From Bacteroidota bacterium (GTDB lineage: Bacteria; Bacteroidota; Rhodothermia; Rhodothermales; Bin80): a stretch of 39,920 nt of DNA. Under the pieces are notes generated by a model. It made no database searches. It saw nothing but the letters and a program-made list of their open reading frames with translations, and had not been told where the DNA came from. Location of the stretch: NCBI GenBank assembly GCA_028873925.1, contig JAPPNA010000169.1, positions 1 through 39,920 of the forward strand, given 5' to 3'. This document shows, piece by piece, positions 3,594 through 31,794 of this stretch; within the stretch, counting starts at the first letter, position 1, and every line of letters starts with the position of its first letter. A program made the position numbers and the translations under genes.

Positions 3594-3619
3594 TCCCGGC
3601 AACTGAATCCGGCATCCGG

Positions 3620-3627
3620 TATCTTTG
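3620..3627 (+). promoter_or_regulatory. Second TATCTTTG -7-like element
   Basis: An exact copy of the 1396-1404 GTATCTTTG word lies 22 bases before the ATG at 3650. No good -33 element occurs 19-21 bases upstream. It could be an internal promoter for the heme-lipoprotein gene or a chance match. Confidence 0.25.
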
Positions 3628-3649
3628 TGAGGATGTATCCGAACGCAAC

Positions 3650-6600: not shown

Positions 6601-6826
6601 CCGACTCGCCGCCGGTCGTTACCCGGCCGCGAGTGAGCTCGAGCTGCTGACCGATTTGTTTGAGACGGAGCAGGATCGATTCATTAGCCGACCCGCTGAC
6701 ATGGATTCGCTCTTTGCTGTCGGCGATTATGCCCGTGATCCGACGCTTGAAAAATCGGCCACCGCTGCGCTGGCCATGGTGGCTCAGGTACTGCTGAACC
6801 ACGACGACACCTACACCAAACGCTAA
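3650..6826 (+). CDS. PSCyt1/DUF1549/LamG/DUF1553 heme lipoprotein
   Basis: Large envelope protein, 1058 aa from the ATG at 3650. That start is preferred over an in-frame GTG at 3590 because it opens directly on a lipoprotein signal (LTLAAC, lipid cysteine 16). A planctomycete-type cytochrome domain follows with one CYACH heme-binding motif (C48, C51, H52). Next come the KPHWAFTPP linker, a DUF1549 domain (about 160-380, with [15 protein letters not shown]), a LamG/concanavalin-like domain (about 430-660) and DUF1553 (about 740-1000, with [13 protein letters not shown]). In Planctomycetes and relatives such proteins are paired with DUF1501 proteins near sulfatases and glycosidases, and that partner follows here after 8 bases. 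The molecular activity is unknown. A redox or carbohydrate-binding role at the cell surface is an inference. Confidence 0.88.
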
Positions 6827-14236: not shown

Positions 14237-15361
14237 CTACAATCTCTGTTGAAGTCGACCGGACAGACTTCGGGCAAAACCCTCAAACCAATCCTCCAGG
14301 ATCGCCCGCCGCGCCTGCCGCATCAGCCATAGGTACAAAGCCAGATTCTGTGCGGTTGCAATCTGCAGTCCCAAAATCTCACTGCACCGAAACAGGTGCC
14401 GCAGATACGCACGCGTAAACGTCTGAGACACATAGGTGTCCAACCCAGGGTCAAGCAGCCCGCAATCACCTGCCCACTTACGATTGCGAATGTTGATAAT
14501 GCCCTCTGTGGTAAATACCATTCCGTTGCGACCGTTCCGTGTCGGCATAACACAGTCAAACATGTCCACGCCGCGCGCAATGGCTTCCAGCAGATTGGCC
14601 GGCGTGCCTACGCCCATGAGATAGCGCGGCTTCTGTTCGGGCAGCTCCTCGCAGGCCGCAGCTACCATGGCATACAGCTCCGACTCGGATTCCCCCACCG
14701 ATAATCCTCCGATCGCGTATCCCGGAAAGTCCAGCTCCGTAAGCTCCCTGGCATGGTCCCGTCGCAGGTCCTCATAGATACTCCCTTGAACAATACCAAA
14801 AAGGAGCTGCCGATGTTCGTAGCGTCGGGGCGATTTTTGAAAATGCGCCAGACTTCGTCGTGCCCACCGAGTAGTCAGCGCGGCAGACTGGCGCGCCCGG
14901 GGGTGCGAAATGCCCGCAGGTGGGCACTCATCGAGTACCATCATGATGTCCGACCCCAGAATCCGCTGAAAATCAACCACACGCTCCGGCGTGAACATAT
15001 GCTGCGATCCGTCAATGTGACTCTGGAACTGTGCCCCCTCGTCAGACACACGGCACCGCGCAGCCAGGGAATACACCTGATACCCTCCGGAATCCGTCAG
15101 TATCGCTCTCGGCCATGCCATAAACCTGTGCAAACCGCCCGCCTGCGCTATGGGCTGCACAGATGGCCTAAGGTACAGGTGATACGTGTTGGAAAGAATG
15201 ATGCCGGCACCCAAATCCTCCATCACATGGCGGGGCGACAGTGCCTTGATGGCCCCGGCGGTACCGACCGGCATGAATACAGGAGTCTCAACCGGTCCGT
15301 GCCCGGTAGCCAGCACACCGGCGCGGGCACGGCCCGATGAATGCACGAGCCTAAACGCCAT
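14237..15361 (-). CDS. tgt: Queuine tRNA-ribosyltransferase, zinc ligands absent
   Basis: Exchanges guanine-34 for preQ1 in tRNAs with GUN anticodons; 374 aa from the ATG at 15361 (a TTG six bases upstream is possible). The catalytic set is intact: D90 in LTDSGGYQVYSL, GGLSVGE, and the nucleophile segment DMFDCVMPTRNGRNG (D269). The C-terminal zinc site is missing. Where E. coli has PECDCYTCR, this protein has PGLDTYVSQ (305-313), and the fourth ligand histidine is Q338 in TAQNL. From memory, Bacteroidota Tgt proteins also lack these cysteines, so this looks like a lineage trait and not damage. Its start overlaps the upstream gene's end by 11 bases. Confidence 0.93.
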   Translation of the reverse strand: MAFRLVHSSGRARAGVLATGHGPVETPVFMPVGTAGAIKALSPRHVMEDLGAGIILSNTYHLYLRPSVQPIAQAGGLHRFMAWPRAILTDSGGYQVYSLAARCRVSDEGAQFQSHIDGSQHMFTPERVVDFQRILGSDIMMVLDECPPAGISHPRARQSAALTTRWARRSLAHFQKSPRRYEHRQLLFGIVQGSIYEDLRRDHARELTELDFPGYAIGGLSVGESESELYAMVAAACEELPEQKPRYLMGVGTPANLLEAIARGVDMFDCVMPTRNGRNGMVFTTEGIINIRNRKWAGDCGLLDPGLDTYVSQTFTRAYLRHLFRCSEILGLQIATAQNLALYLWLMRQARRAILEDWFEGFARSLSGRLQQRL

Positions 15362-15935
15362 ACTCAACCTGGCGAGACACGCCCGGGTGGACGCGCTGTC
15401 CCAGTCTCTGTTGAATCAGCTGAGCCAACCTGGCATGAACCGACGGGCCAATCCCAATGGCAACATGCTGATCGGCAATGGTCAATACCAGCACATCCTC
15501 CGGTATGCGCGCCATAAAGCACCGCGTGTCGGTGTACTGCGCATAGTTGCGATAGTAGACCAGTGCGCTGACGATCTGACTGCAGTCCACCGCCGCGAAC
15601 TTCACCCTATGACTGCGGCCACCCTGCCGGATCGTCAGACCGTCCGTATCTGCTGAGACTTCAACGCCCGCTTCAAATCCAACCAGACAGATGGCCATAA
15701 TCAGACCAAACACCGCCCAGGGCCAGAACAGAAGACCCTCCGCACCCTGAGCCTCCCCTGCGCTCGTAATGGCCATAACGGCAATCATACAAAGGACCGC
15801 AATAGTACTCGCGGCGATCAGATACCAGGCTTCCGCGCGACGTTCATCTTTAATCAGGCGGGAGCATATCCGCCCCAGGATAGAGCGGGCCGGATGATAC
15901 CGCGAGCGCCCACGAAAAGTCCGGCACGATGCCAT
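15351..15935 (-). CDS. Two-helix membrane protein, unknown function
   Basis: A 194-aa protein from the ATG at 15935. A GTG at 15944 overlapping the MCE stop (TAGTG) is an alternative start and would give direct coupling. A basic N-terminus is followed by two transmembrane helices (WYLIAASTIAVLCMIAVMAI and LLFWPWAVFGLIMAICLVGF). A C-terminal soluble domain contains short beta strands (DGLTIRQGGRSHRVKFAAVD, VLVLTIADQHVAIGIG) reminiscent of bacterial PH-like domains. No family can be named. Position between the MCE gene and tgt, overlapping both or nearly so, ties it to the lipid-transport operon. Confidence 0.65.
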   Translation of the reverse strand: MASCRTFRGRSRYHPARSILGRICSRLIKDERRAEAWYLIAASTIAVLCMIAVMAITSAGEAQGAEGLLFWPWAVFGLIMAICLVGFEAGVEVSADTDGLTIRQGGRSHRVKFAAVDCSQIVSALVYYRNYAQYTDTRCFMARIPEDVLVLTIADQHVAIGIGPSVHARLAQLIQQRLGQRVHPGVSRQVEYGV

Positions 15936-15943
15936 GGGTCGCA

Positions 15944-17005
15944 CTACTGATCCACCAGCTGCAGCAGCGAGTCCAATTGGGCGGCCTGCCGATTCAGATT
16001 GGCCTCAAATACCAACAGCTCCTGCTCTTTTTCCTCCAGCAGCCGGAAGCTCTCGGTGATCGCCCGCTCACGGATTTCAAAGGGTGCCTGCTCCACATAT
16101 CCGCGCTCTTCAAAATACCGGCGGAACAGCCAGTTGTGCTTGCCCGCTTCCATAAGCTCCGCAAATCGGAATGCCCCAAGTGTCCCCCAGTCGGTCATAT
16201 GCTCCACCCGCAGGGTCAGCTCATTCAAACTGCCCGCCATAACCCTCAGGGTGTCCACCGTGGCCAGTACCGTAGCGTAAACATCCGGATCATTGAGCAG
16301 GCGCGATACCGTCCCGTCACCCGCATTGATTTTGCTCAGAATTGATTCCACGCCGGTGCTGGCGTGCTCCACCACCTCCACGAACGCCGCTGCCTCATCG
16401 GCCAGATGGGTCAGCAGCCTTTCCGTCTCCTGTGTTACGTCTACCAGACTGTTGTACAGCTCCGGGTCGTAGATCAATTTGCCGATGGTCCCTTCACCCG
16501 CCCGAATGTCGTCCACAATTCGCTCAAAGGATGTGGCGGACTGCTCAAAGCGCTGGACTGACCCCAACGCTCTATCGGTGATTTCAAACAGATCAAACGG
16601 ATCCACCCCGACAATAAAATCACCGCTTTCAACGGGAATCAGCTCCCGCCCGTTGGGCGGCGGATTCACCAGCACTACAATCATGCTGCCGACCAGACCT
16701 TCGGTCTTGATCTGAGCCTGGGTCTGACTGTGCAGCAGATGCTGGGTGTTCGGGCGGATGCCCATGGTTACCTCAATCAGGGAGCCCGGCGCGGTCGGCA
16801 GGGCCACGCTGCGTACGGCCCCGATACTGACACCCTGGAACTGCACGGCCGCTCCGGCACGAAGGCCCGCAACCTGGTCATATTGCGCTCTGATCACAAA
16901 GCGCTCGCTGAACAGCAGAGTCCGACTCCCGATGATGATCAGGGCCAGCACAAAGACCGCCACCGATGCCAGGACTACCAGCCCTACACGAGTCTCTCGC
17001 GTCAT
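15944..17005 (-). CDS. MCE-domain lipid transport protein (MlaD-like)
   Basis: Substrate-binding component of an MCE lipid transporter, 353 aa. One N-terminal transmembrane helix (about 8-28) anchors it in the inner membrane, facing the periplasm. The single MCE domain (about 35-115) begins FVIRAQYDQVAGLRAGAAVQ and includes VSIGAVRSV and LVGSMIVVLVNP. The remainder is helical with repeat-like segments (GEGTIGKLIYDPELYNSLVD and GDGTVSRLLNDPDVYATVL) and a coiled-coil C-terminus, typical of longer MCE proteins. It follows mlaF by 57 bases. It should form a ring on the MlaE-MlaF complex and guide phospholipids across the periplasm; direction of transport cannot be judged. Confidence 0.9.
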   Translation of the reverse strand: MTRETRVGLVVLASVAVFVLALIIIGSRTLLFSERFVIRAQYDQVAGLRAGAAVQFQGVSIGAVRSVALPTAPGSLIEVTMGIRPNTQHLLHSQTQAQIKTEGLVGSMIVVLVNPPPNGRELIPVESGDFIVGVDPFDLFEITDRALGSVQRFEQSATSFERIVDDIRAGEGTIGKLIYDPELYNSLVDVTQETERLLTHLADEAAAFVEVVEHASTGVESILSKINAGDGTVSRLLNDPDVYATVLATVDTLRVMAGSLNELTLRVEHMTDWGTLGAFRFAELMEAGKHNWLFRRYFEERGYVEQAPFEIRERAITESFRLLEEKEQELLVFEANLNRQAAQLDSLLQLVDQ

Positions 17006-17062
17006 TCAACAACTACCCATTGGGCGAATAAACTGCCTGTTTTGATCCTATGTTCTGCGCCA

Positions 17063-17800
17063 TCAGTGGAAAAACTCTTTCAGCATGGGGTGAGGGTGCG
17101 TACGCATGTCGCTTAGCGTGCCCTGAGCGAGCACCTTTCCTTCATGCAGAAAAACCGCACGATCCGCCGCAATTTCGGCACAGAGCAGATCATGGGTGAT
17201 CGTGATCACAGACATATTGCGGCGTTGGAGCCGTACCAGCAGATTGGACACGGTACGAACGGACACCGGGTCCAACCCCGTTGTCGGTTCGTCGCAAAGG
17301 AGGATTTCCGGCTCCAGTATAATGGCGCGCGCCAGAGCTACACGTTTTTTCTGACCGCCTGAAAGCTGCGCCGGATACTGGTTGGCGGTCGCCTGCAGAC
17401 TCACCCAGTCCAATGCCTCCATAATGCGGTCCGTCCGTTCCGCCTTCCGCAGATCAGTGTGTCGGCGCAGCACAAAATCCATGTTATCCGCGACAGTCAT
17501 GGAATCAAAAAGAGCACCTCCCTGAAACAGGTACCCAATCCGAAGCCGTACCGCGTCCAGATCAAGGGAAGACAGTTCATCTATACGCTGTCCCAGCACC
17601 TGAATCGCACCCAAATCCGGCTCGATGAGGCCGACTATGTGCTTCAGCAGTACGCTCTTGCCCGTTCCGGAGCCTCCCATGATGGCCACCGATTCGCCGC
17701 ATCGCACGCGCAGGTTGATCCCTCGCAGAATCCGTCGCCGACCAAATGCCTTGTGCAGGTTGTTGATCACCACCACATCCTGCGGATCGGGATTCGTCAT
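17063..17800 (-). CDS. mlaF: MCE transporter ATPase (MlaF)
   Basis: Cytoplasmic ABC ATPase that powers the MlaE permease; 245 aa from the ATG at 17800 (a TTG at 17809 would overlap the mlaE stop). Walker A is GGSGTGKS (42-49), the Q-loop LFQGGALF (91-98), the signature LSGGQ (146-150), Walker B ILLCDEPTTGLD (166-177) and the switch histidine H203. LFQGGALFDSMTV is characteristic of MlaF-type ATPases. It lies 5 bases after mlaE and precedes the MCE gene, giving the usual permease-ATPase-MCE order. Confidence 0.93.
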   Translation of the reverse strand: MTNPDPQDVVVINNLHKAFGRRRILRGINLRVRCGESVAIMGGSGTGKSVLLKHIVGLIEPDLGAIQVLGQRIDELSSLDLDAVRLRIGYLFQGGALFDSMTVADNMDFVLRRHTDLRKAERTDRIMEALDWVSLQATANQYPAQLSGGQKKRVALARAIILEPEILLCDEPTTGLDPVSVRTVSNLLVRLQRRNMSVITITHDLLCAEIAADRAVFLHEGKVLAQGTLSDMRTHPHPMLKEFFH

Positions 17801-17805
17801 GAGTC

Positions 17806-18564
17806 TCAACCGAACAGCATCAGGGAAATCCGCACCAGCACCACATTGGCCACCAGTACCAGCAGTGAACTCACGACCACGGCCTGCATCGCCGCCTGAC
17901 CCACCTCCCGGGTGCCGCCGCGCACCTTGAATCCGAAATTGCAGCCCGTAATCGCCACAATGAAACCGAATACGCCGGTCTTGGCGGTAGAGAAAATCAG
18001 ATCTGAAAGGCGCAGACTCGCAAACGCCTGATCCACAAACAGCCGGTAATCCAGCTCACTGGACAGCAGGGCCTCCAGGTAGCCCCCGCCAAGCGCCACC
18101 AGGTTGCACGCCACCGTCAGCAAGGGAAACATTACGATGCAGGCCAGCACACGCGTGACCACGAGGTGCCGGAACGGATTCAGGGCGGCCACCTCCAGCG
18201 CATCAATCTGCTCGGTGACGCGCATCGATCCCAACTCAGCAGCTATGCCAGCTCCCAACCGCCCCGCAAGTACCAGCGAGGTGATCACCGGACCGATTTC
18301 CTTGACCACCGCCAGGGCCAACATGCTCGGCAGAACGGCTTCGGCACCAAACCGCGCCAGCGTCCCCCGGCTCTGCATAGACAGTACCACCCCAATGGCG
18401 CAGCCGGTAACCAGCACCAGTACCAGACTCTTGGTGCCGATTTCATCCATCTGGCGGATGAGCTCCCGGCCTTCAAACGGTCGTTTGAACACCTGCCAGG
18501 CGAACTGGCCGGAGAAAAGGGACAGGTCTCCCAAACGTTCCGTAAACGGTTTCAGGCCGGGCAT
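17806..18564 (-). CDS. mlaE: MCE transporter permease (MlaE)
   Basis: Inner-membrane permease of the MlaE family, 252 aa. Family motifs are the amphipathic N-terminal region (FAWQVFKRPFEGRELIRQMD), the TM1 segment GCAIGVVLSMQ, and the conserved coupling stretch MRVTEQIDALEVAALNPF (about 114-131). Further hydrophobic helices run to the C-terminus. Its ATG overlaps the tamB stop codon by one base (TAATG), strongly implying translational coupling to tamB. It works with mlaF and the downstream MCE protein in phospholipid movement between membranes. Confidence 0.93.
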   Translation of the reverse strand: MPGLKPFTERLGDLSLFSGQFAWQVFKRPFEGRELIRQMDEIGTKSLVLVLVTGCAIGVVLSMQSRGTLARFGAEAVLPSMLALAVVKEIGPVITSLVLAGRLGAGIAAELGSMRVTEQIDALEVAALNPFRHLVVTRVLACIVMFPLLTVACNLVALGGGYLEALLSSELDYRLFVDQAFASLRLSDLIFSTAKTGVFGFIVAITGCNFGFKVRGGTREVGQAAMQAVVVSSLLVLVANVVLVRISLMLFG

Positions 18565-21500
18565 TACCAGGTATATTGGGTAAGGACACTCAGGCCGAGC
18601 GCGCTGGTGTCCGCACGCAGCCGGGCCAGCAGCCAGGGATACAGCACGTATTCTACCGACAGCGCTTTACGGCTCTGCAGCCTGGACGCATCCGACAGAG
18701 TTTCTGATGCCAGCGGCCAACTGACCGATGTGAACAGGCGGCGTGAGATATGCTTGCCGGCGGTTACCGTCAGGCCCCGGCTGCCCTCGGGTTGAATCCG
18801 AACCACATCCAGACCCAACCCGGCTCCGGCTGCTCCTGCAATAAGCGAGTTCAGCTGACCAATGGCCAGACCGCTGCCCGCCTCCAGTGTGCTGGTGCCC
18901 GCGGATTGAAAGGCATCCGCCGCCGGGCGGCCCGTGGCTATGTAGTGAAGAATATCCGCCGGATCCAGATTTATGGGTTCGCTGCGCAGATTCAGCTCAA
19001 TCGAATTCGTCTCCTGAAGACGGCCTCTGGCTTCCAGCAGGATGGTCACCTGGGCATCCTGGGTGCTCTGTTCACGCACCGCCATGGCCGCCTGGAGATC
19101 AAAATACGGGTCCAGAGAGGGTCCGGCAAACGTGACCCGACCGCGGCGAATGTCAAACCTGCGCCCGAACTGATGCACGGAACTTAGCGAGGGTACCACG
19201 CTCAGGGTACCGATGATCTGCTGCTGCTCAAAGGCGGCCTTGATCATTCTGAGTGAGCCGGCAAGGGCAACATCCATCTCAGGATTCCGGACGGATCGCA
19301 GCCATACATTCCCGGGTATTCCCACCTCCAGATCCATACTCAGCGCGTCGGCTACCGAGTAGGTCGTGGTATCCTGCGCCGTAACGCGAATATTGAAAAA
19401 CTGCTCCAGCATCTGCAGATCCTCCTCCGCAAAGGCCACCCTCCCGGTACTCATATCCGCAGCGGCCTCTCGCGGACGGATAACCGCCCCGGTCATATCA
19501 AGGCGTCCATTCAGCACGGGCCTGACCAGCGTGCCCGCCAGACGCAGTCGCCCATCTGCATCGGCCTGATAGGGTCGCGTATTAACCAGCGTGAAGTCAT
19601 CAAGGATAAGGGCCAGATCCAACTGGAGCGAGCGTAGCGATTCCAGGACCACCTGCCCCTGACCGGCGAGCGTGCCCTGACCGCTGTGCGCGGAGATCTC
19701 TCTGACGCGAATCGTGTCACCTGCCGCCCGGGTGCGCAGCTGTCCCTGGGCCACGGCAATTCCGAGCTCAGGCAGGTGCATTGACAGATCGGCCAAGTCG
19801 GCGGTGCCGGTAAGCCTCGGGCTTTCCGCGGTGCCGGTCAGATCCAGATCCGCCGTCAGATTGCCCGACAGGTCCCGTACCACATCAGGATCCAGGAAAG
19901 GTGTAATCCATGCCAGATTCAGGGCATCGCTTTTTATCCGCAGCGCGGTGTCCACATCCGGCATCGGTGCCGCCCTTGCCAGGCGCAGATCGACCGGCAC
20001 ATAACCGAAAAGGCGCAGCGACGATCCGTCGTGGTGTGTCAGCGCAGCATCCACACCCAGCCGAAAGTCCCCATATTCCACTTCAGCCCGCAGATCACCG
20101 ATGGAGCGGTCCTGCTGATGCACATCCATGACAATCGAACCGCTGACGACCGGACTGACCGCGGGTCCACTGAGGAAAAAGCCTCCGTTTACCGTCCCGC
20201 CCAGATCTTCAAGTCCCAGCAGATCTGCGAACCTCCCCACTTGGACCTCGAACAGGCTGATACCGAGATTCTGCTGTCCATTGAAATCCAACACGCCATC
20301 AATGGCCACTTCCTGAGCGTCCTCCACGATCAGCAGGTTGCGCACGCGGTACCGATCGCCCGTACTGATGGTGGCCGCCTGGTCCAGATGCCAGTGATCC
20401 TCATCCAGGCGCATGTCCAGATCCTCCAGCACCAGGCGCTGCTGTGCCAGATCAGCATACCCCCGGACGCTGGCCCGGCGGCGGTCATCAACAATCAATT
20501 GCGCGTCATACTGAAGCGCCCCCTCCTGATGCCGAACCGCCAGCGACGCACTGCGCGCGGCCAGGGCAGGCACCGACACGCGTGATACCTCCAGTTCGGC
20601 CTCCGACAGCGTGGGCCTCAGTCCGATGACATAGCCCCGCAGCCTGCCCTGCGTGTTGAAGATGCGCACATCTCTCCAGGTGGCTGGCCCGAGCCCGAAA
20701 CCGACCGAATACAGCAGAGAGTCCGCCCCCGACGTAATGTGCACCCGAAACGAATCCGCCGAACTGCCCCCGCCTGTTGCCGGGCCGAGCCATCGCCTCA
20801 GCGGACCGACATCCCTAAGATGCCCCACCAACTCCAGTTCCTGACCGATGCCATGCTTTAGAGCCAACGCGCCGGAGGCCTGCAGGCGCGCCACACCGGA
20901 ATCAAGCGCCAGCGTATCCAGCCGCAGATATCCATCGCGCCAGGCCCCGCGGGCCCGCCCTGCTTCAAGCACGATCCCACTCACCGCGGCATCACTGACG
21001 AACACCTCCGCACGTTCCAGCACCAGGCTTTCCAGATCTGACCCCGACCCGGCCAAATCGAAACTGCCGGATGCGACAGCTTCCAGGCCAGCCAGTGCCT
21101 CAAGGTCCAGCTCTCGGACCCGGCCTCGCGTCGCAAAGCTCCCATCGGCCCGCTGCAGCAGCGTATCCACCACCAGATATCCGGATGGCAGCTCAAGACT
21201 CAGGCGGCCTGCGGTGGCTCCTTCGGCTGCAAGTAATTCTATCGTGCCCCCGCGCACTACCTGCCGGTTCACAGTGGAGCTGTCCAAGTGCATCTGCAGG
21301 TGACCGGACCCGCTGCGGATAAAGGCACGGTCTATGACCCCTGTCAGCTGCGTCCGCCAGGTTGTATCACTAAGGATGGCACCCAGATTGACCCCCTCAA
21401 AGTTCGCATGTCGCAAAGAAACCGCCGGTGCGTCAAGCAGGGAATCCATATCAGCTGCTAAGTCCAGTCCGCCACCGGGCCAGTAAATCTGCACAGATAC

Positions 21501-23405
21501 AGCCCCCGTGTCTGCAACTACACCCAGCGCCAGGTGAGCGCTGTCAACAGCCTGTTCCCCCACCCATGAGTTCTCCAGGCGCGCTGAGGCTTCCACCTGG
21601 TCAAGACCCCACCCGGAAAGCCGCAACGCACCTGTAAGATGGCTGGCTACGGGTGCGCCAAATGCCTTCATGTCTGCGCCTGTAATGGACATCCGGGACA
21701 CGGACCAAACCGGATGCGGCCCCGAATAATTCAATCCGCCGACTCCCCGAGCATCCCCGGCCGCCGTATTGATCTCAAAATCCGCCTGTACGTCCGACCG
21801 GTCCATTTCAATGCGTGCAAGTGCTGAACCGACCGCCAGCTCATTGAGCCAGGAAGAATCCGCCCGCAGGTCCATCGTGAGACTGTCGGGGGGCCATCGG
21901 CCATTGAGATCGACCTCCGCGTTTACGCGACTGAATGCGTCCGCACCGGTCAGACCGGCCAGGTCCAGGTCGGTAAGCCTAAGCTGCCCGGTCAGTACCG
22001 AGTCCCTACGCCGGGAGTCCAGGATGATCGCTCCCTGATCCGTGGCAATAAGCCCGGCAATCTCAAAGGAAACGGAATCCATCCGACCACGAATCTTTCC
22101 GGCCGTAATGCTGCGTGCTCCCATGCGGCCGCCGATCAGCGTGAGGCCTGCCGTAAGTTCCTCGGCAAGATCCACTTGTACGGACCCGTCAATTGCGCTG
22201 GACTGATGCGCCACATACCGCCCGATATCAAACCCCCTGAAGGCACCGCCAATCCGTCCGTGCATCTCTGCAAGAGCCACTTCGCCCTTGAGGTCCATGT
22301 ATGCTGAGGCCAACTGACCCTGCACGTCCAGTGCTGCCTGACCATTTGTGATTGCGGCACTTGCCTGGACAGCGTCCATGGACACGCCGCTAAGGCTGCC
22401 CCGTACGTCAGTGAGCACAAGTTCGCCGGAAAGGTGCCCGGCTGACCGGCCCAAGAGATAGCCCTCAATATCCGCAGCTATGCGCCCAGGGGCCAGATCA
22501 GACACCACTGCGGGATTCAGGTTGCGGATGCGCAGTGAGTCAATGACCCACTGATTCCGAAGGGGGTTGAGCGTAGCGGCTGCCACCACATATCCGCCAT
22601 CGGTGAAAGTGCCCGAGGCCGACAGATGCATAGCACCTTCAGGACCGACCAGACGGGCCTCCAAAATCAGAGACTCCTCGGAATGGGGCATCCAAGGGGC
22701 CAACTCCTGCAGATGAAGCGGCGTGGTCCGCAAGCGCACATCAGCTCCGATGCCGGGTTCAACATGCCCGCCTGCGACCATAACCGTCTGCTGACCTGTC
22801 ACGATGAGCGTGTCCAGATCGAGCCTGCCGCCATCCCATTGGGCCCGGCCGGCCAGACTTACCGGCTGCACGTTCGGATCCCATTGGAGGCTTGTATAAA
22901 GCGTATCCAACCGCAGGTCCCATCCCGGACGCAACCGGCCTTCCAGCCAAATGGACGAGGCGACAGCCACAGAATCCAGAAGCGTCAGGCGACCCTCACG
23001 CACGGTGAAATAATCCACGCGCACCTTGGGAGGATCAGCATTGTCTGGCTCCGGCGGCGTGCCTGCCGGGGGCTTAAGCCGTAGATCTGCGCCAACCAGG
23101 GCAACCTCCGACAGATGCCACCGACCGGCAATAAGGCCTCGATGGTCCGGCCTCAAAATGACCGTATCCGCTGCTACCTCCAAAGCGCCCCAACTGATAC
23201 TGAGTCCGCGCAGTTCCAGTGTTGTCAGCCAGTGCCCGCGCAAAGATTCAAGAGAGACTTTCGCGCCCGCCAGTTGCAGGCTCGCGCGCACAATGCCAGC
23301 CAGACTCCAGGGCAGCGAAACGGCCGCAACCAACGAAATGACAACCAAAGCTGCCCAGAGCCACCGCCTTCGTGCCTGGATCCACGCCTTGCTGCGACTG
23401 ATCAT
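18564..23405 (-). CDS. tamB: TamB-like translocation/assembly protein
   Basis: A 1613-aa AsmA/TamB-superfamily protein. The ATG at 23405 was preferred over a GTG at 23447 because it gives a short basic N-terminus followed directly by a transmembrane anchor (WLWAALVVISLVAAVSL). The long middle is repetitive beta sequence expected to form a hydrophobic groove spanning the periplasm. The C-terminal TamB (DUF490) domain (about 1250-1613) includes FDIRRGRVTFAGPSLDPYFDL in part and the typical SEPINLDPADILHYIATGRP. TamB works with the outer-membrane barrel TamA, and AsmA-like proteins are implicated in phospholipid transport to the outer membrane. Here it heads the MCE operon (TAATG overlap with mlaE), while a TamA-like gene lies 3.4 kb upstream. 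Confidence 0.9.
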   Translation of the reverse strand: MISRSKAWIQARRRWLWAALVVISLVAAVSLPWSLAGIVRASLQLAGAKVSLESLRGHWLTTLELRGLSISWGALEVAADTVILRPDHRGLIAGRWHLSEVALVGADLRLKPPAGTPPEPDNADPPKVRVDYFTVREGRLTLLDSVAVASSIWLEGRLRPGWDLRLDTLYTSLQWDPNVQPVSLAGRAQWDGGRLDLDTLIVTGQQTVMVAGGHVEPGIGADVRLRTTPLHLQELAPWMPHSEESLILEARLVGPEGAMHLSASGTFTDGGYVVAAATLNPLRNQWVIDSLRIRNLNPAVVSDLAPGRIAADIEGYLLGRSAGHLSGELVLTDVRGSLSGVSMDAVQASAAITNGQAALDVQGQLASAYMDLKGEVALAEMHGRIGGAFRGFDIGRYVAHQSSAIDGSVQVDLAEELTAGLTLIGGRMGARSITAGKIRGRMDSVSFEIAGLIATDQGAIILDSRRRDSVLTGQLRLTDLDLAGLTGADAFSRVNAEVDLNGRWPPDSLTMDLRADSSWLNELAVGSALARIEMDRSDVQADFEINTAAGDARGVGGLNYSGPHPVWSVSRMSITGADMKAFGAPVASHLTGALRLSGWGLDQVEASARLENSWVGEQAVDSAHLALGVVADTGAVSVQIYWPGGGLDLAADMDSLLDAPAVSLRHANFEGVNLGAILSDTTWRTQLTGVIDRAFIRSGSGHLQMHLDSSTVNRQVVRGGTIELLAAEGATAGRLSLELPSGYLVVDTLLQRADGSFATRGRVRELDLEALAGLEAVASGSFDLAGSGSDLESLVLERAEVFVSDAAVSGIVLEAGRARGAWRDGYLRLDTLALDSGVARLQASGALALKHGIGQELELVGHLRDVGPLRRWLGPATGGGSSADSFRVHITSGADSLLYSVGFGLGPATWRDVRIFNTQGRLRGYVIGLRPTLSEAELEVSRVSVPALAARSASLAVRHQEGALQYDAQLIVDDRRRASVRGYADLAQQRLVLEDLDMRLDEDHWHLDQAATISTGDRYRVRNLLIVEDAQEVAIDGVLDFNGQQNLGISLFEVQVGRFADLLGLEDLGGTVNGGFFLSGPAVSPVVSGSIVMDVHQQDRSIGDLRAEVEYGDFRLGVDAALTHHDGSSLRLFGYVPVDLRLARAAPMPDVDTALRIKSDALNLAWITPFLDPDVVRDLSGNLTADLDLTGTAESPRLTGTADLADLSMHLPELGIAVAQGQLRTRAAGDTIRVREISAHSGQGTLAGQGQVVLESLRSLQLDLALILDDFTLVNTRPYQADADGRLRLAGTLVRPVLNGRLDMTGAVIRPREAAADMSTGRVAFAEEDLQMLEQFFNIRVTAQDTTTYSVADALSMDLEVGIPGNVWLRSVRNPEMDVALAGSLRMIKAAFEQQQIIGTLSVVPSLSSVHQFGRRFDIRRGRVTFAGPSLDPYFDLQAAMAVREQSTQDAQVTILLEARGRLQETNSIELNLRSEPINLDPADILHYIATGRPAADAFQSAGTSTLEAGSGLAIGQLNSLIAGAAGAGLGLDVVRIQPEGSRGLTVTAGKHISRRLFTSVSWPLASETLSDASRLQSRKALSVEYVLYPWLLARLRADTSALGLSVLTQYTW

Positions 23406-24329: not shown

Positions 24330-26705
24330 TTAATGGCCTTTTGAGGCAACAAGGGCCGATTCCAGCAGCTGCAGTCGCTCCGCCTCTATTGTGCCACGCT
24401 CATGGGTAGGTACCACCGACGACAATCGGCTGATGCGCTTGACATCCTCTGCATACTCTTTGAGCCGGCGCTTGTAGCCGTTTCGGTTTTTGGTGCAGAC
24501 CAGGCTGTAGGGACTCCCTTTGCGCTCGGTGACATAATCCAAATCCAGTTGGTGGGACTTAATCAGATGACGGAGATATAGGCGGGAGGCCTTGGCGACT
24601 TTAAATCGCTTAACACGCTCGGTATGGTGCGTACAAAATGCCTGCAATTCAGTGCACAGCTCACGGTCACACGGCAGGTCTACATCAATTTGCCAATTCG
24701 TCGGCTCGCTGGGTGGAACGCTGCTGCGCTCAAGAAGAAAATCAACGGCTAGGCGCCATAACATCCGATACGCCCGGGTGCCGGAAAAATTCCGGATCCT
24801 GTTTAAACCCGACACGACCGTAGGCAGCATGCGGTCCGGCGTAACGATCCGCGGATACGCCGCAATGATTTGGGCGGCCTGGACCGATTCTGCGGTGAGT
24901 CCCAGGCGCTCGGTGAGCACAAACAGGCTGCGGAGTGCCTTCGCATCCGGTGATAAGCGTTTGAATTCCGTCTTGCTGCCGGAATGCCTGTACCCGTGCC
25001 CAGGGGTAATCTTGTTCAGGGCTTCTGCAGCAGCCTCCAGTGAGGCACGCAGACCGCCTGCGGCCGTACGCACCGATGCCCGTTCCACGTCCCGCCACTC
25101 AAGTTGGGCCTTACCCCGACGCTTTGCGACCAGGGTTAACAGCGCGAGCACTTCCTTGGACCGCTTCAACATATATCTCTCCACCAGCGACAGCATAATT
25201 CGCCCTCCAATTTCGGGACCAAGCTTGCGGATCAGCTCCGCCAAAGACTGATTCTCGCCGCCGGTGTATTGCTTGAGCACGGTGCCGTTGATGAAACGCG
25301 TCGCCAGATTGGTATCGCCGGCCGCATCCAACAGCCGCAGCATGTCCTCGCGGGCATCGTCATGGGACCTGAAGTAGGTACTTTCCGGCCACACCTCAAT
25401 CAACACCGCAAGCATACGGCGGATTGAAGCTGGATCTTCGCGGTCACATTGGTCTTCCACCCAGGAGACTGCGTTACCAATACTCCTGCCTGCGACGATT
25501 TTCACGGTCTGCGCTTTGGGCCATATTACCAGTGCCGCAAACCGGTAAATCAGTTCAAGCGTTGGGCCGTAATTCCCATGATACTCCTCCAATAGTTCGT
25601 CATCGGGATCCGCGTTCTTCAGCGCTTCAGGGGGATGGATTTCGCCACCGTTGAGATGGAGTTTGCCGAGTTGTGGACGACTGCCATCCGGGGCAATCCA
25701 GTTTTCGAGATGCTCATCCCGATCGTGTACTTCGGCCAGCCTGTCACCCGATATGGGCTCTTCGTTGCCATACCCATAATCCATCTCCGGGTCCCCCGTT
25801 TCCGAAATATGCAGCGTAGCTGCATAAATGGAGCAGTCTGCACGTTCAGCGGCCCGTCCCAGTACTTGGGCAACGGCCGCATCGGTGCCCTTGAGCGTGT
25901 CAAATGACAGGCCCTCTTCGCTGTAGCCGTGATCAAGCAGCCAGACCAGCTTCTCGGTCTTACCCTGTTTACGCCATTTATTGAGGCAGGCTGCCACCTC
26001 GTGGGTCAAATCCGCATAGTTGGGTGCACCCTCCCACTGCGGACCGTTCCGAACGAACAGGTTGAAGACTAAAGATATTCGATGTCCTTGGGTTACCGGC
26101 CGTGCCTCGTGCAGACAGTCTGCATAGAAGGCCGCGAAGGCCAGTTCAGAGGGATCCTGCGCACTCATGTCAATGGTGGTCGCTTCCCCGCCGTGGCGGA
26201 CGACCAGTTCGCCCCCTTCGCCCGGTGTGGGCAGCGACAGCGAAAGCGTGGCGATCATGCCCGGTACTTTCTCCGTATCCCGATGAGCAGCAAAGAAACC
26301 TCCCTCCCGGTAGACTAGGAGCTTGTAGAGCTCTGTGCCGAGCTTTCCGTCGGGCAGCCCAAGCTCCTGGCTCACCTGCTCCATGATTTTCTTAAAGGTG
26401 TCCGACCATCCGCGGCCGCCCACGCGAACCTGCTTTGCATCAAGCTGCCAGCAATCCCGCACGGAGGTGTCCGTAAGCGTCCGGGTACCCTTGCCGTAGG
26501 GCGCGCGCTCGGCCACTTGGATCAGCGCCTCAATCTGCGCCAGCAGCACCGGGAACGAGAGCATACCCACCTGATCCACCGTAACACGCGGCATCGGCAC
26601 AATGAGCCTGCCGGCCGCACAGTAGTTGCCCGGACGATCCACCTTCTTCAGCAATTTGATCAGCTGCCTGCTCGCCGGACCGTACGCTTTGGTATCCATG
26701 TACAA
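24330..26705 (-). CDS. Large 2-oxoglutarate/Fe(II) oxygenase
   Basis: A 791-aa protein with a prolyl-4-hydroxylase-like domain near the N-terminus. The region YKLLVYREGGFFAAHRDTEK supplies H141 and D143, and LHEARPVTQGHRISLVF supplies the distal H199 with the 2OG-binding R209 ten residues later, exactly the family spacing. The iron site is therefore complete. The remaining 580 residues are mostly helical and unassigned. Near the C-terminus DLPCDRELCTELQAF and GSPYSLVCTKN resemble segments I recall from large fungal and a few bacterial 2OG proteins of unknown function. No signal peptide, so it should act in the cytoplasm. The substrate is unknown. It lies 90 bases after the TamA-like gene, interrupting the tamA-tamB neighbourhood, which suggests later insertion or transfer. 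Confidence 0.8.
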   Translation of the reverse strand: MYMDTKAYGPASRQLIKLLKKVDRPGNYCAAGRLIVPMPRVTVDQVGMLSFPVLLAQIEALIQVAERAPYGKGTRTLTDTSVRDCWQLDAKQVRVGGRGWSDTFKKIMEQVSQELGLPDGKLGTELYKLLVYREGGFFAAHRDTEKVPGMIATLSLSLPTPGEGGELVVRHGGEATTIDMSAQDPSELAFAAFYADCLHEARPVTQGHRISLVFNLFVRNGPQWEGAPNYADLTHEVAACLNKWRKQGKTEKLVWLLDHGYSEEGLSFDTLKGTDAAVAQVLGRAAERADCSIYAATLHISETGDPEMDYGYGNEEPISGDRLAEVHDRDEHLENWIAPDGSRPQLGKLHLNGGEIHPPEALKNADPDDELLEEYHGNYGPTLELIYRFAALVIWPKAQTVKIVAGRSIGNAVSWVEDQCDREDPASIRRMLAVLIEVWPESTYFRSHDDAREDMLRLLDAAGDTNLATRFINGTVLKQYTGGENQSLAELIRKLGPEIGGRIMLSLVERYMLKRSKEVLALLTLVAKRRGKAQLEWRDVERASVRTAAGGLRASLEAAAEALNKITPGHGYRHSGSKTEFKRLSPDAKALRSLFVLTERLGLTAESVQAAQIIAAYPRIVTPDRMLPTVVSGLNRIRNFSGTRAYRMLWRLAVDFLLERSSVPPSEPTNWQIDVDLPCDRELCTELQAFCTHHTERVKRFKVAKASRLYLRHLIKSHQLDLDYVTERKGSPYSLVCTKNRNGYKRRLKEYAEDVKRISRLSSVVPTHERGTIEAERLQLLESALVASKGH

Positions 26706-26794: not shown

Positions 26795-29017
26795 TCAGAA
26801 GGGCTGCCCGATACTGAAGTGGACCCGGATGCGACGCCAGTCGGAATAGTACGCCTCCTCCAGCCCCCGCGCCGACCGGAATGCGTTCCTCGGAGACTGC
26901 AGGTCCAATGGGTCTGGATTTGCTTTGACCGCCAGATCCACACGAATCAATCCTACGGGGGTATCGTAGCGGATGCCGATGCCAGCGCCGATTCTGAACC
27001 GGTCCCAACGCAGTCGCCCGTCGTCAGCCAGGCCGCATTGAATCTCGTACGGCAGGCGCACCGGTACGACCAGCGCAGGATCTGCAAACAGCTCCGCCGC
27101 ACAGGTCGGAGCCGCATAGGACGATACCTGGCCGGCATCCGCGAAAACCGCCGCATGCCAGTCGCCGGTGAGCGGGACCTGCAGTTCCGTGCCGACAAAC
27201 AGGCGGGTCAGACCGCCGGCCGGTTCGTAGAACCTGTGGGTCAGTTCTTCACCCGACTGTTCGGTGCGGTTGGACTTTGCCCCGGCGAAACCCGTGCTCC
27301 AGCCGCGCACATCACTGGCACCGCCTGTGTAAAAGCGTACCGCATCGTATCTGTTTTCATAGGGCGCGGCAAACTGGGCATCTATGGTCACCGGCCCGTC
27401 CGCCGAGTAGTAGGTAACCGACTGCACGCCTGCAGGCCAGATCTTCCCTGCTCCGACCCGGACTGTAAGCTTGCGCCGGCGGCCCAGCGGAACATATCCG
27501 GCAAGGTCCAATTGGGCTTTGGTATATTCAAGCCCCAAGCCCGCAATTCCGAGGAATCTCTCCGCAATCCCCGCCTGCTCCACTGCGGGTCTGATGATCC
27601 AACCGCGCGTGGGTCGCAGATAGTCGTCGGTTGTTGATATCGTACCGCTGAGCGTTAGCACACTCTTATCGTACACATCACGCACCGGGCTGTCGGGGTC
27701 AGGCCGAGCGGCGGTGAATTGAGCTTCGCGGCTCAGCAGATAACTAAGACTGATGGCCTGCCTGCGCGGGTCACCCGCATACCAGCTGTTGCTGACACCG
27801 TACGAACGGCGGTTGTACCCCAGATATCTGTCGGATTCATCCAGCAGCGGGTCCCGCTCATACAGCAGGTACGGTTCAATGCTGGCATTCAGCCATGAAA
27901 ATCCGATTTGCGGCATTCCCAGCGTCACGGAAGTCCGAAGGCGCCGTGAAACCTGAGCACCTGTCTCCGTGAAAGCCAGAAGCCCGGATTCCACTTCCGC
28001 AGAAACACTCAGCAGGCGGCCGCCACCGAGAAAATTCCGCTTGGACAGGGTTCCCTGACCCGTCAGGCCAGTACGCTGGTGATATCCTGTTTCTGCTGAT
28101 ATATGTCGCAGCCGGGCCTGCTGCACGGTAATGAGCACATGCACGGTGCTGTCACGCGGCTGGTCCGGCACATTCACCTGGGCCGCGCTGAACAGATTCA
28201 GGGCAAACAACGCACGCTGCGCCGCCAGCAGTTGAGACTGAGCAAAGACATCGCCTTCTCCAAATGGCAGTGTACGCCGGATCACCTGGTCGTCTATGCG
28301 CCGCTCGCCTTCAATAGAGATCGAATCGACCATACTTATCGGGCCCGAATCCACCAGAAAGCTGATATCCGCCACATTGTACAGCGAGTCCACCTCCAGT
28401 TGCGTTTGGAGCCTGGCAAACGCATAGCCCTGATCTTTCAGCCAACCCAGCACCTGATCTTCAATTCTAACCAATTCAAACGATGTGAGTCGGTCCCCCG
28501 TCTTGAAGCTGGTGGCATCTCTAAAGGTGATCCACCGGTCGCGCATATCGCCCTCAAACGCATACGCCAGATACCCGGCCTCTGCAAAAAAGCCCACATC
28601 CTGGATAATCAGGGGCGCGCCCTGTCGAATGCTGAAGACTATATCAATCCGGTTGGTGGCGGCGTTCAATGTTGATCCGGCGTAATCCACATACGCATTC
28701 AGGTAACCGGCCTCATGGTAGGCTGATCGCATCCGTACCACATCGCTCTGCAGCTCGATCGGATCCAGGATGAAGGCATCCAGGGACCGCAGACCGATGG
28801 CGATGCTGATCCTTTCGCGCCATCGGGGGCCTCGGGTAACAATCAGCTCATTCAGCTCATGGGCGGAAAACAAACGCAGCTCACGGCGGGTGTCGCGGAA
28901 GTCAAACGAAACACTTCGCACCACAGTCTGCCCGTCCGCCTCCAGAAAATCCGTCTGACCCGGTACCGGGGCTACTGGCAACAGCAGTACCAGGCAGGCA
29001 GCAAGACTCCTGGACAT
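26795..29017 (-). CDS. TamA/BamA-family outer-membrane protein
   Basis: Omp85-superfamily protein, 740 aa, with a signal peptide (cleavage near residue 20). POTRA-like modules occupy about the first 330 residues (for example IDIVFSIRQGAPLIIQDVGF, then SISIEGERRIDDQVI). A 16-strand barrel domain follows. The hallmark loop GG565ASDVRGW (R571) is present, and the chain ends in phenylalanine, as outer-membrane barrels usually do. It is shorter than typical BamA and, with tamB nearby in the same direction, is better called TamA-like; a second BamA paralogue is not excluded. It starts 18 bases after the clpX stop. Confidence 0.85.
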   Translation of the reverse strand: MSRSLAACLVLLLPVAPVPGQTDFLEADGQTVVRSVSFDFRDTRRELRLFSAHELNELIVTRGPRWRERISIAIGLRSLDAFILDPIELQSDVVRMRSAYHEAGYLNAYVDYAGSTLNAATNRIDIVFSIRQGAPLIIQDVGFFAEAGYLAYAFEGDMRDRWITFRDATSFKTGDRLTSFELVRIEDQVLGWLKDQGYAFARLQTQLEVDSLYNVADISFLVDSGPISMVDSISIEGERRIDDQVIRRTLPFGEGDVFAQSQLLAAQRALFALNLFSAAQVNVPDQPRDSTVHVLITVQQARLRHISAETGYHQRTGLTGQGTLSKRNFLGGGRLLSVSAEVESGLLAFTETGAQVSRRLRTSVTLGMPQIGFSWLNASIEPYLLYERDPLLDESDRYLGYNRRSYGVSNSWYAGDPRRQAISLSYLLSREAQFTAARPDPDSPVRDVYDKSVLTLSGTISTTDDYLRPTRGWIIRPAVEQAGIAERFLGIAGLGLEYTKAQLDLAGYVPLGRRRKLTVRVGAGKIWPAGVQSVTYYSADGPVTIDAQFAAPYENRYDAVRFYTGGASDVRGWSTGFAGAKSNRTEQSGEELTHRFYEPAGGLTRLFVGTELQVPLTGDWHAAVFADAGQVSSYAAPTCAAELFADPALVVPVRLPYEIQCGLADDGRLRWDRFRIGAGIGIRYDTPVGLIRVDLAVKANPDPLDLQSPRNAFRSARGLEEAYYSDWRRIRVHFSIGQPF

Positions 29018-29035: not shown

Positions 29036-30322
29036 TCAGGCACTGGCGCGCCGCTGCTCATAGACAGGCTTAGCCCCGTGCAGAATCGTGTCACGGGTGA
29101 TACGGCAGTACCCAATATCCTTGAGGGAGTGAACCTCGTACATGATATCAATCATGGAGGACTCCATGATGCTGCGCAGTCCTCGGGCACCCGTCCCGTA
29201 TTCTCGTGCCCGGTCCACGATGGCTTTCAGTGCCTCCTGATCAAAGACGAGATTGATGGAATCCATGGCGAACAGCTTTTGGTACTGCCGGATGATGGCG
29301 TTCTTGGGCTGGGTCAGAATCGCCATCATGATTTCGTCACTCAGCGGGTCCAGGGATGACATCACATTCAGCCTGCCGATGAATTCCGGGATCAGGCCGA
29401 ACTTGAGCAGATCGTCAGGCTCCAGGTACTGCAGAATGGTGTCATCATCTTTGTCCACGCGCTTGTTGCTATCCGACACAAACCCAATCTGACCGGAGCC
29501 CACGCGCTGGGCGATGATTTCCGGCAGTCCGGCAAAGGCTCCGCCGCAGATGAACAGGATGTTGCGGGTATCAATGGTAATCAAGCTCTGTTCGGGATGT
29601 TTACGGCCGCCTCTGGGGGGTACCCCGGCCTCGGTACCTTCCAGCACTTTCAAGAGCGCCTGCTGCACGCCTTCACCGGACACATCGCGTGTGATGGACG
29701 CGTGATCGGATTTGCGTGCAATCTTGTCTATCTCGTCAATATAGATGATGCCCCTCTCCGCCTTCTTTACGTCAAAGTCACTGGCGCTCAGCAGGTTGGA
29801 GAGGATTGTTTCCACATCATCGCCCACATAGCCGGCTTCAGTCAGTGCGGTCGCGTCGCTTATGGAGAACGGTACGTGCAAAATCCGGGCCAATGTGCGG
29901 GCGAGCAGTGTCTTGCCGGTGCCTGACGAGCCCAGCAGCAGAATGTTGGCCTTTTCCAGTTCCACATCACCGAATTCATTGTAGAAATCCACCTTATCGG
30001 CAGCTTCAACCCGCTTGTAGTGGTTGTAGACCGCTACGGAGAGGGCTTTCTTGGCCCGCTCCTGACCGATCACATATTCGTCAAGCCCGGCCTTGATCTG
30101 CATGGGCAGCAGCGGCTTGCGCTTCTTAACTGCGGCTTTCGGACGGGGCCGGAGGCTGCTGGCGTTCTCCTTGTTGGTGCGGACGATCTCTTCGTTCGCA
30201 TCTCTGATGCAGTAGTCGCAAATATATACGCCGGCCGCACCGGCGAAGGCTGACAATACCTCCTGCAGGTCGCGCGTGCAAAAAGAGCAGCGGATAATGT
30301 CGTCCCCCTTGCCCTGACTCAT
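29036..30322 (-). CDS. clpX: ATP-dependent Clp protease unfoldase ClpX
   Basis: AAA+ unfoldase that feeds proteins to ClpP; 428 aa, cytoplasmic. The N-terminal zinc domain has C12-x2-C15 and C35-x2-C38. Walker A is GSSGTGKT (131-138), the pore loop GYVG (164-167), Walker B IIYIDEID (192-199), the ClpP-docking loop GQIGF (IGF 279-281) and the sensor-2 region GARGLRS. All functional elements are intact. clpP is not in the window; in many bacteria clpP sits next to clpX. The ATG overlaps the upstream sulfatase stop (ATGA), so translation is probably coupled. Confidence 0.96.
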
Positions 30323-31794
30323 GAATCACTTTGTTCTGGTGACGGATTCGGGCTTGGCATTTGTGCGTCGACGCTTTCCAGCCATGCGTCCAGCGTCATC
30401 CGCATGGATGCGACCCGTTCATGCTCCGGCTCAACCAGGTTCTGCATTTCTTCCAGGTCCGTCTCCATATTGTACAGCTCCACCTGATCGTCCTCGTGGA
30501 AGGTTATCAGCTTCCAGGGACCCCGCCGGATCACACTGCCCGGGCTGCCCCCCTGGTTCCCGTAGTGCGGGTAATGCCAAAACAGATCCCGCTGCGGCAA
30601 GGCGCTGCCTTTTGACAGCAGCGGCCACAGGCTCACCCCATCTGAGCGGGCGGGCATCTGCTGGCCGGTCATATCCAGGATGGTCGGCATGAAGTCCGTG
30701 CTGATAACCGGGGTGGTTTCCACGCGGGGTGTACGCAATCCGCGCGGCCATCGCACGATCAGCGGCTCACGAATCCCCCCTTCGTACAGCCAGCCTTTGC
30801 CTGCACGCAACGGCAGATTACTGGTCGGGTGCCCTTCGGATGTAGACAGCCCGCCATTGTCGGAGGCAAAGAGCACTATGGTATTATCTGCCAGCCCGAG
30901 GGAATCCAGCGCCCCCAGCACTTTCCCGATGGCCTGATCCATGGATTCCACCATCCCGGCGTACACTGCATGGTTCTGCACCTGGCGCACGCGCCGTTCC
31001 CCTTCCTGCCCCCAGGCTGTGGGCTTCGCGGGCTTCGCTGCATACTTGGCTTCCAGTTCCGGCGTGGTCATCAGCGGCGTATGCACCGAATAAAAGGAAA
31101 GGAACACCAGAAACGGCTGTGACGCGTTTGCCGCCATGAACGCTGCTGACTCACGGGCCAGGCGGCCCGGCAGATGTTCTCCTTCGGGGCCTTCTTCCAG
31201 TCGGGGATTGTCGTACGGCACAAAATAGCCGCCGCGCCCGTAAGGACCGCCGCTTGACCATCCGCCTTTGTTGACTTCAAAGCCGTGATTATCGGGCGAT
31301 TCACCCAGATGCCATTTACCTGCAAAGAATGTCCGATACCCGCCGGCGGCGAGCGCTTCGGCGAGTGTCAGTTCCTCTTCCGGCAGTTCATCCACATACG
31401 GAGCCGGCAGCAGAGGCTTATGGCGCGTCCAATGTCGGCTGACCGTATTGGGCTGGGGGGCTCCGAAGTAGTCGGTCGTATTGAGGCGGGCGGGATACAG
31501 GCCGGTGACGATGCTCGCCCTTGTGGGGCTGCATACCGGAGCTGCGGCATACGCCTGGGTAAACCGCACGCCTTCGCTGGCCAGGCGGTCAATGTTGGGA
31601 GTCTCGTAAAAGGTGTCCGGGTTATAGGCCCCGACATCCATGTAGCCCAGATCGTCCGCCAGAATTAACACGACATTGGGTGGCGGCTTAGCCATGCAAC
31701 CGGCCAGCACAAGCAGTGCGGCGATGGCCAGCACCCCCCTAAAGGTGTATTCATGATTGGACTGCAGCGACCGGTACGTCTCCATTGTCGGCAT
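30319..31794 (-). CDS. Lipoprotein sulfatase
   Basis: Type I arylsulfatase-family enzyme, 491 aa, expected to hydrolyse sulfate esters, perhaps on sulfated polysaccharides. The signal ends in the lipobox VLAGC (C33), so it is anchored to a membrane facing outside the cytoplasm. Calcium-binding D47 and D48 lie in LILADDLGY. The formylglycine site C88-S-P90-T-R92 within VCSPTRASIVTGLYP is complete, so activity needs a maturase, not seen here. The later metal-binding segment FASDNGG is present. The ATG at 31794 was used; 31785 is a possible internal alternative. Its stop overlaps clpX by four bases. Confidence 0.92.
   Translation of the reverse strand: MPTMETYRSLQSNHEYTFRGVLAIAALLVLAGCMAKPPPNVVLILADDLGYMDVGAYNPDTFYETPNIDRLASEGVRFTQAYAAAPVCSPTRASIVTGLYPARLNTTDYFGAPQPNTVSRHWTRHKPLLPAPYVDELPEEELTLAEALAAGGYRTFFAGKWHLGESPDNHGFEVNKGGWSSGGPYGRGGYFVPYDNPRLEEGPEGEHLPGRLARESAAFMAANASQPFLVFLSFYSVHTPLMTTPELEAKYAAKPAKPTAWGQEGERRVRQVQNHAVYAGMVESMDQAIGKVLGALDSLGLADNTIVLFASDNGGLSTSEGHPTSNLPLRAGKGWLYEGGIREPLIVRWPRGLRTPRVETTPVISTDFMPTILDMTGQQMPARSDGVSLWPLLSKGSALPQRDLFWHYPHYGNQGGSPGSVIRRGPWKLITFHEDDQVELYNMETDLEEMQNLVEPEHERVASMRMTLDAWLESVDAQMPSPNPSPEQSDS

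Follow-up and report, generated by a model that had tools for sequence, protein, structure and literature searches.

A conserved gene cluster joining an Omp85–TamB pair with an MlaEFD-type transporter in Rhodothermales

Introduction

How phospholipids arrive at and depart from the outer membrane (OM) is an open question and, outside Proteobacteria, the OM partner of the MlaEFD transporter is not known in most bacteria. The direction of Mla transport is generally disputed. A 39,920-nt stretch of DNA from a member of the Rhodothermales (Bacteroidota; assembly GCA_028873925.1, contig JAPPNA010000169.1), hereafter the window, poses the problem in an unusual form: tamB directly precedes genes for an MlaE permease, an MlaF ATPase and an MCE protein. 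The first-pass annotation described tamB as fused to a complete MCE transporter operon, and read the junction as strict coupling with fixed stoichiometry and possibly one combined conduit. Are these genes a conserved unit and, if so, do they look like one machine or two?

A literature search of open-licence papers found no earlier account of such a TAM–MlaEFD cluster for Rhodothermales. The published parallel comes from Negativicutes, where Veillonella carries mlaEFD-tolC-tamB as one cluster and the defect of mlaD mutants is suppressed once tamB is lost (PMC10665443). The annotation's premise that TamB-like bridges and MCE systems usually occupy different loci therefore holds for most Bacteroidota that we examined and fails for the Negativicutes.

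Gene organization of the locus

Reading of the window sequence confirmed tamB, mlaE, mlaF and the MCE gene as four separate minus-strand ORFs, with the junctions as first described and Pfam in agreement (Table 1). The shared base of the TAATG motif is followed at the far end of mlaE by its TGA, the spacer GACTC (5 nt) and the mlaF ATG (17800), while 57 nt separate the end of mlaF (17063) from the start of the MCE ORF (17005). A real TamB–MlaE protein fusion was ruled out, as the ORFs are separate, leaving translational coupling at most. The 1299-aa open frame containing MlaE in relative G058 was likewise rejected as a tamB fusion, since coordinate arithmetic places it in a different frame from tamB.

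Table 1. Features of the locus, with positions in the window
Feature	Position	Strand	Description
ClpX-like AAA+ protein	29036..30322	-	Pfam AAA_2, zf-C4_ClpX; conserved upstream neighbour
Omp85 gene	26795..29017	-	740 aa, POTRAs and barrel, TamA/BamA-like; Pfam Omp85 1.1e-28, POTRA 1.4e-18
2OG-Fe(II) oxygenase-like gene	24330..26705	-	791 aa; Pfam 2OG-FeII_Oxy_3 1.1e-8
tamB	18564..23405	-	1613 aa; N-terminal membrane anchor; Pfam TamB 4.5e-44, residues 1238-1600
TAATG junction	18562..18566	-	tamB stop TAA 18566-18564, mlaE ATG 18564-18562; one base in common
mlaE permease	17806..18564	-	252 aa; tamB-linked clade; Pfam MlaE 8e-69
mlaF ATPase	17063..17800	-	245 aa; ABC_tran 1.6e-34; between mlaE and MCE
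MCE (MlaD-like) gene	15944..17005	-	353 aa; Pfam MlaD/MCE 1.2e-13
197-aa membrane protein ORF	15351..15944	-	no Pfam/NCBIfam match; homologues in relatives
tgt (queuine tRNA-ribosyltransferase)	14237..15367	-	Pfam TGT 8.9e-147; conserved downstream neighbour

The TamB C-terminal domain scored 151.7 bits against a curated Pfam cut-off of 22.4, and MlaE matched TIGR00056 at 212.6 bits, barely over its cut-off of 212.2. With an MlaE permease, an adjacent ABC ATPase and a membrane-anchored MCE protein, the genes after tamB encode an MlaEFD-type MCE ABC transporter. Taken alone, the TAATG junction is unremarkable, because overlaps of 1 or 4 nt are common in the window: we counted at least three others, namely the 1-nt overlap between the MCE stop and the 197-aa ORF and 4-nt overlaps between 2478-3593 and 3590-6826 and between 30319-31794 and 29036-30322.

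The 197-aa ORF, which is followed by tgt and then ispH, is often kept between the MCE gene and tgt in relatives. Its product probably consists of two transmembrane (TM) helices followed by a PH-like domain; the structural model is weak (pLDDT 67.5, 3 sequences) and its PH/PTB-fold matches (Z 8-10) indicate fold only.

The Omp85 protein of the window scored below the NCBIfam cut-offs for BamA (188 bits), TamL (110 bits, cut-off 400) and TamA (69.3 bits, cut-off 625 for the equivalog), and a canonical TamA or TamL identity was rejected on these scores, leaving it TamA-like in position only. Inspected by eye, its N terminus and those of its relatives resemble ordinary signal peptides with no convincing lipobox; hence, it is apparently not a lipoprotein, and assignment as TamL is unlikely. 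Elsewhere, the same genome encodes a BamA scoring above cut-off (contig C177) and a better TamL candidate (contig C184, 299.5 bits).

In most mapped relatives, an Omp85 homologue lies directly upstream of tamB, several with a 1-nt overlap, and this adjacent Omp85 is likely the OM partner of TamB. The proteobacterial TamA–TamB operon has the same arrangement, although the window's Omp85 is a poor match to the TamA model, and E. coli carries its mla genes elsewhere than its TAM, whereas the Rhodothermales mlaEFD genes are downstream of tamB. In the window itself, omp85 is separated from tamB by the oxygenase-like gene together with about 0.9 kb, which counts against common control of the cluster. 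As omp85 and tamB adjoin in relatives from the same family (L069, L070, L071, L092 and L182), which lack the gene at this position, an insertion is the simplest reading, and the oxygenase-like gene probably falls outside the conserved unit. Its only PADLOC match was a weak one to a CRISPR-associated 2OG model (36 bits).

Conservation across Rhodothermales

TamB and MlaE were both present in all 59 genomes of the order, the source genome included. Antisense frames in these GC-rich genomes confuse greedy ORF calling, and synteny was therefore assessed with tblastn and profiles. tamB followed by mlaE on one strand, with 109-3255 nt between the TamB and MlaE domains, occurred in 38/59 genomes and 10/15 families, which is far beyond chance; the named loci with the linkage are all Rhodothermales, one of them a Rubrivirga. 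Among the 21 other genomes, contig ends just upstream of mlaE (G001, G003) or just after tamB (G034) prevented scoring of linkage in three. The whole order omp85-tamB-mlaE-mlaF-MCE recurs in mapped relatives, so that the cluster is a TAM (Omp85 plus TamB) joined to MlaEFD. Because the order of tamB, mlaE, mlaF and MCE is kept across most families, a functional link is likely. The Rhodothermales MAG locus L096 has mlaE-mlaF-MCE with no TamB detected within 3.9 kb upstream, and the 13.8 kb read from G013 (L179, C3) showed an mlaE-mlaF pair of the tamB-linked type but no TamB and no MCE.

The 'complete' transporter unit of the first-pass annotation is thus real from tamB to MCE and too small, as the conserved unit also takes in the Omp85 gene upstream and the 197-aa ORF downstream. 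Strict coupling and fixed stoichiometry fared worse. The 1-nt tamB–mlaE overlap is not conserved, the interval separating the tamB stop from the mlaE start spans -11 nt to roughly 3 kb in relatives, a SpoIIE-phosphatase ORF is inserted between the two genes in G026, and mlaEFD is absent from the locus in G010 and G023.

Synteny alone proves little, because the 197-aa ORF, tgt, ispH and clpX follow the cluster without necessarily sharing its function: many relatives also carry the ClpX-like gene right before omp85, and clpX, tgt and ispH stay in the same gene run in several families. The genes might accordingly be no more than neighbours, held by vertical descent in a stable housekeeping run from clpX to tgt and ispH. 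The missing linkage in 5/15 families, the variable spacing and the inserted genes are consistent with this; the persistence of the linkage over 10 divergent families, in which TamB proteins are only about 26-35% identical, and an apparently separate joining elsewhere that involves different kinds of TamB and Omp85 (see below) argue against it. We regard mere neighbourhood as unlikely.

Separability of the two modules and occurrence in other lineages

Sister orders within the class also have omp85 next to tamB of the window type, but the 15-18 kb read there contained no mlaE. The TAM pair, therefore, seems to predate its association with mla. Within Rhodothermales, G010 and G023 keep omp85-tamB and the 197-aa ORF with no mlaEFD between them; in G023, a gene for an AI-2E-family transporter occupies the mlaEFD position. 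As omp85-tamB occurs without adjoining mla genes in the sister orders and in these two genomes, the modules are separable, and comparison of these gene orders suggests that a ready-made TAM was joined with mlaEFD. The gene order whose conservation the annotation proposed to check across Rhodothermia and other Bacteroidota holds for most families of Rhodothermales, is absent from the loci read in the sister orders and has a counterpart in the wider phylum in a single genome (G135) among the matches listed.

For each of TamB, MlaE and MCE, the source genome encodes two paralogues. In an MlaE tree of 87 rows, the tamB-linked proteins group together in a 28-row clade (support 100/99) next to sequences from Bacteroidota, Ignavibacteriota and Acidobacteriota, while the second MlaE type, encoded beside radA, forms a separate clade. 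The second TamB (contig C169) has no Omp85 gene immediately upstream, and a profile built from it and its like also matches the TamB proteins of the TamB–TamL pairs read elsewhere in Bacteroidota, placing these with the other TamB group. The TamB2–TamL2 system of Flavobacterium johnsoniae (PMC12045153), from a related lineage, has a second TamB with a neighbouring Omp85, but tamB precedes tamL there and TamL is a lipoprotein, whereas the Omp85 gene comes first in Rhodothermales.

A scan of the phylum found a nearby tamB–mlaE pair outside the order only in G135, of another Bacteroidota family, among the matches listed. Its locus reads tamB-tamL-mlaE-mlaF-MCE (L178:6275-15985), with TamL at 815 bits, and three further loci of its genus (L210-L212) have tamL directly before mlaE (30 loci read; 61 genomes searched); TamB ahead of TamL was seen in G135 only, as L210-L212 are too short to reach it. 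G135 differs in its TamB, which is of the other group, in its Omp85 type and in having tamB ahead of the Omp85 gene, so that its joining looks separate from that in Rhodothermales.

Outside Rhodothermales, the flanks of the 75 loci with the closest MlaE yielded no TamB to a Rhodothermales-trained profile, which could overlook distant TamBs or those beyond short flanks. At least about 2 kb upstream of mlaE, we noted a weak Omp85 profile match, which could be BamA, in seven loci from Ignavibacteriota or unplaced Bacteroidetes MAGs (L097, L098, L100, L101, L107, L114 and L132). IMG/VR returned one partial MlaE match.

The MCE protein and the outer-membrane side

In its structural model, the MCE protein has a single TM helix, a single MCE domain and a tail of about 210 helical residues. 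Its N-terminal helix and beta domain have pLDDT 80-96, with Mce1 and MlaD as the best fold matches, and the model is helical to the C terminus (residues 309-352, pLDDT 74-88; 197-275, low confidence). No C-terminal OM beta-barrel of the Veillonella type was predicted, a small barrel made by a hexamer lying outside the reach of the model; this agrees with the report that MlaD of FCB bacteria lacks a barrel (PMC10665443). MCE proteins of Bacteroidota, whether tamB-linked or not, share the same lay-out and a common C-terminal motif; hence, the MCE protein shows no sign of adaptation to TamB.

MlaA was found in 0/59 genomes of the order, the source genome included (positive controls match in E. 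coli). The Rhodothermales locus shares MlaE, MlaF and an MCE protein with E. coli Mla but has no MlaB or MlaC gene, and its MCE protein is 353 aa long versus 183. MlaC is encoded in 50/59 genomes, away from mlaEFD. The single MlaC gene of the source genome is next to a TolC-like OEP gene on a contig other than that of the window. In the two genomes examined for its position, the MlaC-family gene directly follows a TolC-like OEP gene, at L239:4867-6902 (G000 C61; 4-nt overlap) and L240:11311-13307 (G010 C44; 1-nt overlap). The TolC-like/MlaC pair recalls the Veillonella mlaEFD-tolC-tamB cluster, and TolC–MlaC is another candidate for the missing OM side of MlaEFD.

The absence of MlaA and of a barrel on the MCE protein leaves the transporter short of an OM partner, and it is here that the proposal of one powered conduit, in which MCE/MlaEF is the inner-membrane base docking on TamB or its Omp85 to move lipid to or from the OM, has its appeal. 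The adjacency conserved in 38/59 genomes and the separate TAM–Mla juxtapositions in Negativicutes and G135 fit it as well. But TamB already has an Omp85 next to it, linked and unlinked MCE proteins have one architecture, the tamB–mlaE spacing is not conserved, G010 and G023 keep omp85-tamB with no mlaEFD at the locus, and Veillonella genetics set tamB and mlaEFD in opposition (PMC10665443). The combined conduit of the first-pass annotation thus lacks positive support, and we judge it very improbable. A broader form, in which TAM is the OM end of MlaEFD in bacteria lacking MlaA and an MlaD barrel, with pump and bridge forming one regulated lipid route, seems to us a long shot too; were it true, it would account for the repeated joining of TAM and mlaEFD in separate lineages.

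A proposed reading: two envelope machines under common control

The adjacency suggests that TAM and the transporter run together, not that they form one machine, and from the comparisons of gene order and sequence we lean slightly towards reading the conserved Rhodothermales cluster as two separate envelope machines under common control. The first would be the TAM, an Omp85 barrel in the OM plus TamB, an inner-membrane-anchored groove spanning the periplasm, which would pass phospholipids from the inner membrane to the OM, with a possible further role in the folding of OM proteins. The second would be an ATP-driven inner-membrane lipid transporter of MlaE–MlaF and an MCE ring. Co-expression, presumably from a common transcript, would keep the two fluxes in balance; by analogy with Veillonella, these would most likely be opposed.

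The Veillonella parvula/Negativicutes cluster (PMC10665443) resembles that of Rhodothermales in its clustered MlaEFD and TamB genes, its lack of MlaA and its elongated MCE protein. It differs in that mlaEFD comes first, tolC lies between and tamB is last, whereas the Rhodothermales cluster starts with the Omp85 gene and is without tolC; moreover, Veillonella MlaD ends in an OM barrel.

In F. johnsoniae, depletion of TamL affects OM homeostasis in a manner unlike a lipid-transport defect (PMC12045153), which counts against TAM as a lipid route. TAM might instead mainly assemble OM proteins, with mlaEFD co-expressed to match the supply of OM protein and OM lipid. The Omp85 of the window scores best with BamA, in keeping with this, although work on proteobacteria and Veillonella implicates AsmA-like TamB proteins in the transport of phospholipids. 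We consider this quite unlikely, and sequence cannot separate it from two lipid routes.

The TAM–MlaEFD cluster of most Rhodothermales families, together with the separate cases in another Bacteroidota genus and in Negativicutes, offers a concrete pair in which opposition or contact between the two systems may be sought, and the relatives without mlaEFD at the locus provide natural controls.
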